Below are positions 29,280 to 36,958 of a DNA stretch of 43,347 bases, piece after piece (the first letter of the stretch is position 1; every line of letters begins with the position of its first letter). The stretch lies in contig JACCVM010000056.1 of the NCBI GenBank assembly GCA_013698135.1, forward strand, positions 1 to 43,347. Direction: 5' to 3'. Origin of the DNA: Euzebyaceae bacterium (lineage in GTDB: Bacteria; Actinomycetota; Nitriliruptoria; Euzebyales; Egibacteraceae). The translations under genes and the position numbers were made by a program. The notes beneath the pieces were generated by a model. The model searched no databases. It was not told the DNA's origin and worked only from the letters and a program-made list of their open reading frames with translations.

Positions 29280-30245
29280 TCAGGGCGTCACGGCGGCGTC
29301 AACCCGCAGGCCGGCCGAGGCCAGCGCCTCCGCAAGGACGCGCTCGCACAGATCAGGAAATAACCAGCCGTGGGCGGCTGCGGCCATCGGCAGCAGCGAG
29401 GTCTCGGTCATGCCTGGGCAGGTGTCAAGCTCCAGCAGCCACGGGCGGCCGCCGCCGTCGACGATCATGTCGGCGCGGGTGACATGCCGACACCCGGCGA
29501 GCCTCCAGGCGGCTTCGCCCATGGCCACGCAGGCGGCGAGTGTGTCGTGCGGCAGGCGTGCGGGAGCATGGAACTGGGTTGCGCCGTGCGTGTAGCGGGC
29601 GCTGAAGTCGTAGGGGCCGGTTCGCGGCGCGATCTCCACCGGCGGCAGAACGTCGTCGCCGACGATGGACACCGCCACTTCAACCCCCTCGACGAAGCGC
29701 TCGATGAGCACGACGTCGTCATAGCTATAGGCGGCCACCAGCGCAGCCGGCAGGGCGCTGGCTTCCGGCACCAGCCGCACACCCAGTGCCGCCCCGCCGT
29801 GGGATGGTTTGACCACGACAGGGGTGCCGAGGCGCTCGATGACACGGTCGAGGGCCTGGACCGCGCCCATGTCGCGGATGGCGTCGATCGACAGGGCCAC
29901 CCACTCGGGCGTGTCCACGCCGCCGCGCCGGTACACCCCCTTGGCCACCACCTTGTCCCAGGCCAGAGCGGACGCCACCGCGTCCGGCCCGGTGTAGGGC
30001 ATCCCGAGCAGATCGAGCAACCCCTGAATGGTGCCGTCCTCACCGGCCTTGCCGTGCAAGGCCAGGTAGACGGCCTCGTCGTCGCCGTTCACCAGCGCGG
30101 GCACCAGACGGTCGTCCAGGTCGAGGCGCGTGACGCTGTGCCCGCGGTCAGCCAGCGCCTCGGCGACGCGACCGCCCGATCGCAAGCTGACGTCGCGCTC
30201 GAGTGACAGCCCGCCGCTTAGGACGGCCACCTTGACCGGCCTCAT
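29280..30245 (-). CDS. D-alanine-D-alanine ligase-like ATP-grasp enzyme
   Basis: A 321-aa ATP-grasp ligase of the Ddl family, expected to join two D-amino acids for peptidoglycan. It has the N-terminal 'GGLSLERDVSLRSG' (the Ddl Glu), 'ALHGKAGEDGTIQGLLDLLGMPYTG' and 'TRADMIVDGGGRPWLLELDTCPGMTETSLLPMAA'. Two key places differ from typical Ddl. The ATP-loop motif 'KPxxxGSSVG' is 'KPSHGGAALG', with Ala where Ser150 lies in E. coli DdlB. The metal Asn of 'E-x-N-T' is Asp274 in 'ELDT'. The gene is the second of a coupled pair with an aminotransferase (ATGA overlap). It may be a true Ddl or a relative with another substrate. Confidence 0.82.
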   Translation of the reverse strand: MRPVKVAVLSGGLSLERDVSLRSGGRVAEALADRGHSVTRLDLDDRLVPALVNGDDEAVYLALHGKAGEDGTIQGLLDLLGMPYTGPDAVASALAWDKVVAKGVYRRGGVDTPEWVALSIDAIRDMGAVQALDRVIERLGTPVVVKPSHGGAALGVRLVPEASALPAALVAAYSYDDVVLIERFVEGVEVAVSIVGDDVLPPVEIAPRTGPYDFSARYTHGATQFHAPARLPHDTLAACVAMGEAAWRLAGCRHVTRADMIVDGGGRPWLLELDTCPGMTETSLLPMAAAAHGWLFPDLCERVLAEALASAGLRVDAAVTP

Positions 30246-31489
30246 CGCCGATCGCCGAAGATCGCGTCCATGAGCTCGACCTCTTCGTGCAGCACCTCGG
30301 CCAGCCGCCGGACACCTTCACGGATGCGATCGGCCGGAGGAAAGCAGAACGACAGCCGCAGCTCGGCAGCACCGCTGCCGTCGGCGTAGAACCCGGCGCC
30401 GGGGACGTACGCCACGCGCGCACTCAGGGCTTTGGGCAGCAGCTGGCGGGCATCGACGCCGTCGGGAAGCCGGACCCAAACGAACAGACCGCCGGTGGGA
30501 GCGGTCCAGGAACAGCCTGGCGGAAAGCTGGCCGCAAGCTCGTCGAGCAGGGCGGTGCAGCGACGGCGGTAGACGTCGCGGAAGACCTCGATCTGGCGCA
30601 GCCACGGCTGTGTGGCGAACCAGCGTTCCGCCACGTGCTGGGTCAGATTGGACTGGCACAGGTCGGCGGCTTCCTTGAGCAGCACCAGCTTGTCGCGAAC
30701 GGGCTCGGCGGCCGCCACCCAACCGATGCGCAGCCCAGGGGACAGGATCTTGGACAGCGTCCCGACATACAGGACACGATCGGGGGCCAGCGAACGCAGG
30801 GCGGGACGCAACTCGCCCTTGAAGTCCAGCAGCCCGTACGGGTTGTCCTCCACGACCAGCAGGTCGTGGGACTCGGCGAGGGCGACGACCTGCTCGCGAC
30901 GCTGCACCGACATCGACGAGCCGGCAGGGTTCTGGTGGTTCGGGATGGTGTAGAGGAACTTGGCACTGCGGCCGGCCGCTGCGAGGCGCTGCAACGCGGC
31001 CTCCAAGGCGACAGGGTCCATGCCCTCGTCATCCATGGCGACATGCACCACCTCGGCCTGGTAGGAGGCGAACGCGCCCAGCGCACCGACGTAGGAGGGT
31101 CCCTCCGCCAGCACCACGTCGCCGGGATCGCAGAACAGCTTGGCGACCAAGTCCAGCGCCTGCTGCCCACCGGTGGTCACCACCAGATCGTCGGCTTGCG
31201 CCCGAACACCCTCGGCCGCCATCACCTCGGTGAGTTGCTGGCGTAGCGCCGGCAGACCCTGGCCCTCTCCGTACTGCATCGCCGCCGGCCCAGCGTCGCG
31301 GATCACCGCCTGGGTTACCTCCGCGAGCGCGTGGTAGTCCAAGGCTGCGGTGTAGGGCATGCCGCCGGCGAGCGACACCACCTCGGGGCGGTTGGCGACG
31401 GCGAACAACGCACGGATCTCCGAGGCGTTCATCCCGTGCGCTCGGCTGGCGTACCGGGCTCGGAAGCGGTCGAGGTAGATCTCGGTCAC
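30242..31489 (-). CDS. PLP-dependent aminotransferase, fold type I (LysN/MocR-like)
   Basis: A 415-aa class I/II aminotransferase. 'VVSLAGGMP', 'MQYGEGQGLPALRQQL', 'TTGGQQALDLVAKLFCDPGDVVLAEGPSYVGA', 'YTIPNHQNPAG' and 'VVEDNPYGLLDFKG' follow the 2-aminoadipate/LysN subgroup. The PLP lysine lies in 'YVGTLSKILSPGLRIGW' and the phosphate Arg follows. The track begins at 31573; I chose the GTG at 31489, which starts 'VTEIYLDRF' after a GAGAG ribosome site, with a TACGCT -10-like box 32 nt up. The substrate cannot be told from sequence. Coupling to a Ddl-like ligase hints at a D-amino-acid or branched amino-acid role, but that is speculative. Confidence 0.9.
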   Translation of the reverse strand: MTEIYLDRFRARYASRAHGMNASEIRALFAVANRPEVVSLAGGMPYTAALDYHALAEVTQAVIRDAGPAAMQYGEGQGLPALRQQLTEVMAAEGVRAQADDLVVTTGGQQALDLVAKLFCDPGDVVLAEGPSYVGALGAFASYQAEVVHVAMDDEGMDPVALEAALQRLAAAGRSAKFLYTIPNHQNPAGSSMSVQRREQVVALAESHDLLVVEDNPYGLLDFKGELRPALRSLAPDRVLYVGTLSKILSPGLRIGWVAAAEPVRDKLVLLKEAADLCQSNLTQHVAERWFATQPWLRQIEVFRDVYRRRCTALLDELAASFPPGCSWTAPTGGLFVWVRLPDGVDARQLLPKALSARVAYVPGAGFYADGSGAAELRLSFCFPPADRIREGVRRLAEVLHEEVELMDAIFGDRR

Positions 31490-31664
31490 ACGGGCTCTCT
31501 CGCGTCGGCGCCGGCGTGCCGAGCGTACAACGGCCTTGTCCGACAGGGCCGGCGCTGCGGGATGCCGGTACACTGACGTGCCCGGACGGCCCGAAGAGAA
31601 CCTCGGTCAGCGAAGCCGCAAGCTGAGCGCGGGTTCGAGGTCCGGCGAAGAGAAAGGGAGCGAG

Positions 31665-36007: not shown

Positions 36008-36958
36008 CTACAGGCGCAAACTCAACGCGGTCGAGCAGTCCCCGGCCCGCACAATCTCCACCTGGATGCGATCCAGCTCCCGCGCGCCGTCGCTGGCAGT
36101 GACGAGCACGTACGCCAGGGCCGGCTCACCCCGGTACACGACGGTCTCCACCCGGGCTGGAACCACCGGCGTCGCGCTGTCGCGCCGCAGCGCCGCCAGG
36201 CATTCGGCCGGCGCTAGCGCATCGCTCAGCGGCGACGATCGGCGCAGGAAGGCCGCGGCGCTGTCGGCCGCCGCGCGCGCTTGCGGCAGTGGTGCTGCCA
36301 GCAGGCGTTCGGCCTCGACCAACGCGCGATAGCGGGCCCGGACCGCCGCCTCGTCGGCCAGGACGACCTCGCGGTCCAACACCACCGGCCGGCCGGTCCG
36401 GCTGGGCGCGCCCTGCGCGGCGGGCTGGTCGCCAGCCTCGGTGGACTCACCTGTTACGGCGTCCTCAGCGGATCCCCCGCCCTGCCCGGCGACTCGGCCG
36501 GCCGCTTCCTCGCCGGCGCCTCCGGCGCTGGAACCGCCACCACCCACCATGAAGCCCAGCTCCTGCACGGCCAATCCCGAGACCAAGGCCACGGCAGCCA
36601 CGGCTGCCGCCACGGTGCCACCCAGCACCCAGCGACGCTGCCTTGCCGCTCGCCGCCCCCGGATCTGATCCAGGTCAGTGACAGGGGCGGCGGCCAGCGG
36701 CGCGCCGCCGTCACCACGTACCGGATCATCGCCGCGTTCGGCGAGCAGGCGCTGGGTCAGCCGCGCGTCGAAGCCCGACGGTGGGGTCGCGCGGTCGAGG
36801 TTCCCTAGCGCGACCAGCATCGCGGCCATCTGGTCCAGGCGTCCGGCGAGTTCGGGGTCGCCGGGAAGCCGGGCCTCCAATGCCGCCGCCTCGTCGTCGG
36901 GTAGGTCGTCGGCGAGGTAGGCGGACAGGACGTCGTCGGGCACGGCTCGCGAATTCAT
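36008..36958 (-). CDS. Membrane anti-sigma factor (SigM-type regulator)
   Basis: A 316-aa bitopic protein. The N-terminal 90 residues ('VPDDVLSAYLADDLPDDEAAALEARLPGDPELAGRLDQMAAML') resemble an anti-sigma domain without an obvious zinc motif. One membrane helix lies at about 111-131 ('WVLGGTVAAAVAAVALVSGLAV'). The external part has a Gly/Ser/Ala-rich linker and a charged domain that includes one Cys pair. It starts at an ATG overlapping the sigma gene's stop (ATGA), typical of a sigma/anti-sigma pair. It is positioned like Rv3912 next to sigM. The trigger is unknown. Confidence 0.82.
   Translation of the reverse strand: MNSRAVPDDVLSAYLADDLPDDEAAALEARLPGDPELAGRLDQMAAMLVALGNLDRATPPSGFDARLTQRLLAERGDDPVRGDGGAPLAAAPVTDLDQIRGRRAARQRRWVLGGTVAAAVAAVALVSGLAVQELGFMVGGGGSSAGGAGEEAAGRVAGQGGGSAEDAVTGESTEAGDQPAAQGAPSRTGRPVVLDREVVLADEAAVRARYRALVEAERLLAAPLPQARAAADSAAAFLRRSSPLSDALAPAECLAALRRDSATPVVPARVETVVYRGEPALAYVLVTASDGARELDRIQVEIVRAGDCSTALSLRL

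Follow-up and report, generated by a model that had tools for sequence, protein, structure and literature searches.

In the window analysed here, the whole 43,347-nucleotide stretch of contig JACCVM010000056.1 of a Euzebyaceae bacterium, the gene for a D-Ala-D-Ala ligase (Ddl)-like protein, here called DDL2, is joined to the gene for a PLP-dependent aminotransferase (AT), and the same pair is found in more than half of 297 Actinomycetota genomes surveyed. We hypothesize, with slightly better than even confidence, that DDL2 is catalytically active as a ligase and specialized for some product that is not bulk D-Ala-D-Ala, and that AT supplies or interconverts one of its substrates. The fold and family of DDL2 are already known; of the AT-linked pair we found no description in the open-access literature searched. 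Family models name DDL2 a D-Ala-D-Ala ligase, and the pathway, if real, is hidden by that annotation; were the product indeed different, a widespread metabolite or cell wall modification would have been missed and ddl annotations in the carriers would be wrong. Because the two genes make a small, well-delimited unit that culturable non-pathogens also carry, the question is directly testable.

Coordinates of the ligase and aminotransferase features in the window, and locations of related features in other genomes
Feature	Position	Strand	Basis
DDL2, Ddl-like (DdlB-like) ATP-grasp ligase, 321 aa	29280..30245	-	ORF, Pfam, NCBIfam, AlphaFold2 model
DDL2 ATP-loop G-G-A-A-L-G, residues 150-155 (E. 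coli DdlB 148-153)	29781..29798	-	DdlB alignment
DDL2 Arg217 replacing DdlB Lys215, omega-loop	29595..29597	-	Alignment
DDL2 Asp274 replacing metal ligand Asn272	29424..29426	-	Alignment
AT, PLP class I/II aminotransferase, 415 aa from GTG 31489	30242..31489	-	Pfam PF00155 E 2e-35
PhzF-family gene between AT and DDL2, deep-branching Actinomycetota	L151-L156, e.g. L155:1531-2433, L154:4719-5651		
DDL2 with Glu270 replaced by Gly	L052, L053, L056, L057, L059, L060, L062, L067, L068, L077		

The MAG from which the window comes (as contig C159) is 74% complete, and among named organisms it is closest to Nitriliruptorales and Euzebyaceae. The ligase of the window has the fold and family-model matches of a DdlB-type D-Ala-D-Ala ligase (EC 6.3.2.4), with hits to PF07478 (E 3e-41) and PF01820 and a score of 314.8 bits against NCBIfam NF002378 (cut-off 243), and is about 40% identical to E. 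coli DdlB. The folds nearest to its AlphaFold2 model (pLDDT 93.5) are of the DdlB type, with 1.7 Å and a TM score of 0.91 on superposition with DdlB 1iow; the ATP-loop is a lower-confidence stretch in an otherwise confident model. In the numbering of E. coli DdlB (gene b0092), used for all ligase residues below, the ATP/metal and donor-site set E15, K97, K144, R255, D257, E270 and S281 is complete, and H63, E180, E187, Y210 and Y216 are likewise unchanged. The substitutions include S150A, S151A, K215R, N272D and E148G, leaving the Lys215, Ser150 and Asn272 of DdlB-type ligases absent. Both motifs singled out by the sequence-only reading, GAALG and ELDT, are present in the open reading frame, whose translation contains HGGAALG and ELDTCPGMTETSLLP, and its description of the altered positions as near invariant in D-Ala-D-Ala ligases holds among 26 long-type housekeeping Ddls (S150, S151 and N272 each in 26/26).

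The ATGA overlap that the same reading had claimed is borne out by the AT stop (TCA, plus strand 30242-30244) and the DDL2 start (CAT, 30243-30245). From the earliest possible start, at 31573, AT would be 443 aa long. The protein has the Aminotran_1_2 domain, PLP lysine and carboxylate arginine of LysN/KAT-II-like class I/II aminotransferases; the nearest solved structures are 1x0m and 3aov (PH0207), both at E 2e-93, 1wst and LysN 2egy, and S234-K235 and R366 (A4 numbering) are invariant in AT, which thus appears to be catalytic. Interpretation of AT as a MocR-type regulator was rejected, as Pfam finds aminotransferase domains only and no GntR/HTH domain. AT differs from the LysN/KAT-II/PH0207 group, with which it shares its domain, invariant PLP lysine and arginines, in being the fixed partner of a Ddl-like ligase. 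That group works on L-amino acids and, given the resemblance, a D-product would require an epimerase. Around the pair lie convergent parA and parB, a GNAT gene, a peptidoglycan-binding amidase gene and trxA-like and trxB-like genes, a setting that recurs phylum-wide. The par/trx region of the window also contains a 316-aa open reading frame (36008-36958, minus strand) with no Pfam match.

Comparison of gene neighbourhoods, one of the checks proposed in the sequence-only reading, shows that the link to AT is deeply conserved. Of 80 named loci, 79 have AT as the immediate upstream neighbour of DDL2; no AT was detected in the other (L070), the sequence of which begins 1.1 kb upstream of DDL2. In the survey, AT is present in all 130 genomes with a strong match to the DDL2 profile (E ≤1e-110) and in 1/71 genomes whose top match falls at about 1e-46 to 1e-69, while genomes with intermediate scores are mixed (43/60 and 1/13). 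Among the 124 genomes with coordinates listed for both genes, the distance is ≤400 bp in 116 (median gap 72 bp); seven of the rest have the two genes within 1.3 kb and one has them on two contigs. The pairing also persists away from the par locus (L031, L054, L071, L140-L144), where the neighbours of the pair (in Coriobacteriia, Thermoleophilia, f15, f24 and f16) gave no common functional hint except PhzF. The coupling is not due to chance. Named relatives carrying the pair include Micromonospora, Actinoplanes, Amycolatopsis and Nonomuraea, and survey genomes putatively named as Streptomyces-like and Mycobacterium-like appear to be without either gene. A strong AT match without DDL2 was seen at L137 (G048:C1:760000-775000), among other genes and away from parAB, and in Nonomuraea a gene judged by eye to be a probable threonine aldolase lies between DDL2 and parB (L035:9728-10774, L066:10235-11281).

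Seven genomes from five families (f10, f36, f53, f60 and f64) have AT and DDL2 on the same contig and not adjacent. Six of them were examined, and each has a single intervening gene, which encodes an isomerase of the PhzF family (PF02567; E between 7e-56 and 1e-76 for the five that were scanned); G248 shows the same spacing as these six. The lineages carrying the additional gene fall in one clade of the ligase tree. PhzF and diaminopimelate epimerase have a common fold, which makes an isomerization step between transamination and ligation conceivable. On inspection, the f36 copies (L151 and L156) look degenerate, having lost residues kept elsewhere at what we take to be the active site. No PF02567 gene was found in the incomplete MAG to which the window belongs.

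A second, housekeeping-type ddl is present in the window MAG, on contig C5 in the order gpsA-ddl-thiL (Pfam search, E 5e-66), and its product is only 31% identical to DDL2. The search for another ddl suggested by the sequence-only reading, which named the lack of one as part of what would refute its proposal, thus succeeded, and DDL2 need not be the housekeeping enzyme. Another Ddl is found in at least 23 of 25 named DDL2-carrying genomes, and two or more Ddl-domain matches in 171/175 AT-positive against 20/122 AT-negative survey genomes, by a hand count at E ≤1e-12, a cut that may let in some other ATP-grasp genes. DDL2 is the only Ddl match in G125 (97% complete) and in one MAG, G326. G163 was rejected as a further such case, its divergent second Ddl-like gene being located at C3; the encoded protein (L161:6111-7238, 375 aa, NEVNSIPGAMALYLW) is on a very long branch and its placement in the tree is unsure. 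In the complete genome of Naasia aerilata (G329, L097), the other ddl match (C1:2019297-2019910) is split over two frames by a frameshift or sequencing error.

Residues were counted in the first 97 DDL2 sequences, 26 long-type housekeeping Ddls and two other Ddls. E15, H63, K97, K144, E180, R255, D257, Y216 and S281 are invariant in DDL2, and E270 is retained in 85 of the 97. At position 215, 93 sequences have Arg, three have Met and one has Ala, compared with Lys in 25/26 long-type housekeeping Ddls and both other Ddls, and wider sampling found Met215 in most deep lineages. Asp272 occurs in 25/97 sequences, all within a Nitriliruptoria-like clade of ligases (support 98), and Ala150 in 17/97, all among those 25. 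Since most orthologues retain Ser150 and Asn272, S150A and N272D do not define the family, and the GAALG and ELDT changes fail as its mark; loss of catalysis read from these two motifs as the main signal was likewise rejected, both being limited to one clade with an intact operon. Judged from the alignment, the broader family signal is the Lys215 to Arg/Met change in the omega-loop, together with canonical residues altered in separate sublineages. The f15 sublineage keeps Lys215 and has E270D, with N272K in two of its three sequences, and Tyr216 is replaced (Met/Leu/Val) in L143, L144 and L148. In ten Actinoplanes/Paractinoplanes DDL2 sequences (VLGxNVSPG), Gly takes the place of the metal ligand Glu270, which suggests that catalysis is changed or lost there.

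Our current working hypothesis is that DDL2, as a DdlB-like paralogue, and the adjacent AT would form a dedicated two-enzyme module apart from the housekeeping Ddl. AT would move amino groups to or from the amino acid or keto acid that serves as one substrate, and DDL2 would activate a small amino acid, with a donor pocket as for D-Ala, as the acyl phosphate and join this to an acceptor held by the altered omega-loop. The hypothesis draws on the near-universal second Ddl-domain gene, the co-occurrence and adjacency of AT, the single clade outside the DdlB types, Arg or Met at position 215 in almost all AT-linked ligases, the invariance of E15, R255 and S281, and the PhzF gene. Against it count Ser150 (80/97) and Tyr216 (97/97), which are mostly kept, the two genomes with DDL2 as sole Ddl match, the NCBIfam Ddl subfamily score above cut-off and the Lys215 of f15. 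The main rival is that DDL2 is a redundant or conditional second D-Ala-D-Ala ligase, with AT either co-inherited or tuning the alanine, pyruvate and glutamate pools. Retention of the donor-site residues and Tyr216 in the main sample, the subfamily match, the DdlB-type nearest folds and the situation in G125 all fit such an isozyme, yet AT coupling is near-perfect even off the par locus, nearly all carriers hold a second Ddl-domain gene, and the deep Lys215 to Met change, the replacement of Tyr216 in some members and alteration of Glu270 or Asn272 in others are not what it would lead one to expect; we consider it unlikely, although deserving of weight.

It is very unlikely that DDL2 is no longer a ligase and acts as a sensor or regulator by binding nucleotide or D-Ala: the Glu270 to Gly loci and the f15 substitutions at Glu270 and Asn272 would suit this, but K97, K144, E180, D257 and E270 are present in most members, including that of the window, and AT looks catalytic. 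Most improbable, in our estimation, is a variant whose specificity has shifted so that peptidoglycan would end in D-Ala-D-Ser or D-Ala-D-Lac, as is known from glycopeptide resistance. Ser150 and Tyr216 are conserved in Ddls producing only D-Ala-D-Ala, and E. coli DdlB with these residues changed to Ala and Phe has weak D-Lac activity (PMC7691350); the Ser150 to Ala change in the window recalls that of the Leuconostoc D-Lac ligase quoted in the same paper, but the window DDL2 combines Ala150 with Tyr216, Tyr216 is kept in the main sample and Ala150 is limited to one clade. The NCBIfam Van models score far under cut-off (the best, VanG, 171 bits against 495), and no vanH, vanX or vanRS type gene is among the scanned neighbours, which are of the parA, parB, AT, GNAT, amidase and trxB types; a Van-type ligase was rejected as a poor fit to these scores and neighbours. 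As for the proposal in the sequence-only reading that the pair makes or joins an unusual D-amino acid or another dipeptide, the second ddl and the AT link speak for it, the substitutions it named are not family-wide, and the product is plausible.

Cooperation between a ligase and an aminotransferase in dipeptide synthesis has a precedent in BacD and BacF of bacilysin biosynthesis, although BacD is of a different ligase family from DDL2 and both belong to a larger gene cluster. The mycosporine ligase MysD is a Ddl homologue for which other amino acid substrates are possible via the omega-loop (PMC11983340); we liken it to DDL2 by description, and no mysA-C genes were recognized beside DDL2. The Ddl-like genes of the Micromonosporales pdx operon are also an uncharacterized second actinobacterial Ddl with a PLP enzyme, yet are accompanied by serine/threonine dehydratase, VanX-like dipeptidase and VanRS, with no aminotransferase (PMC8698665). 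DdlB-type enzymes have in common with DDL2 the fold, the Pfam and NCBIfam models and the ATP-grasp and donor-site residues; DDL2 is distinguished by its AT linkage, the second Ddl-domain gene alongside, the K215R, S150A, S151A and N272D changes in the window, and its separate clade.

The ligases linked to AT come out as a single clade (SH-aLRT 97 in the first tree, 100/99 in the careful tree), which excludes E. coli DdlB and the unlinked DdlB-type ligases L125, L126, L139 and L163, and DDL2 does not group with the DdlB-type housekeeping enzymes. We put it at a little short of even that AT and DDL2 represent an ancient, widespread actinobacterial pathway to a dipeptide or ligated amino acid, to which PhzF would add a third step in part of the lineages. 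A DdlB-type ligase gene without AT adjoins parB in certain deep lineages (L163:4053-4979, L139:6443-7378), hinting that DDL2 may derive from a par-linked ddl.
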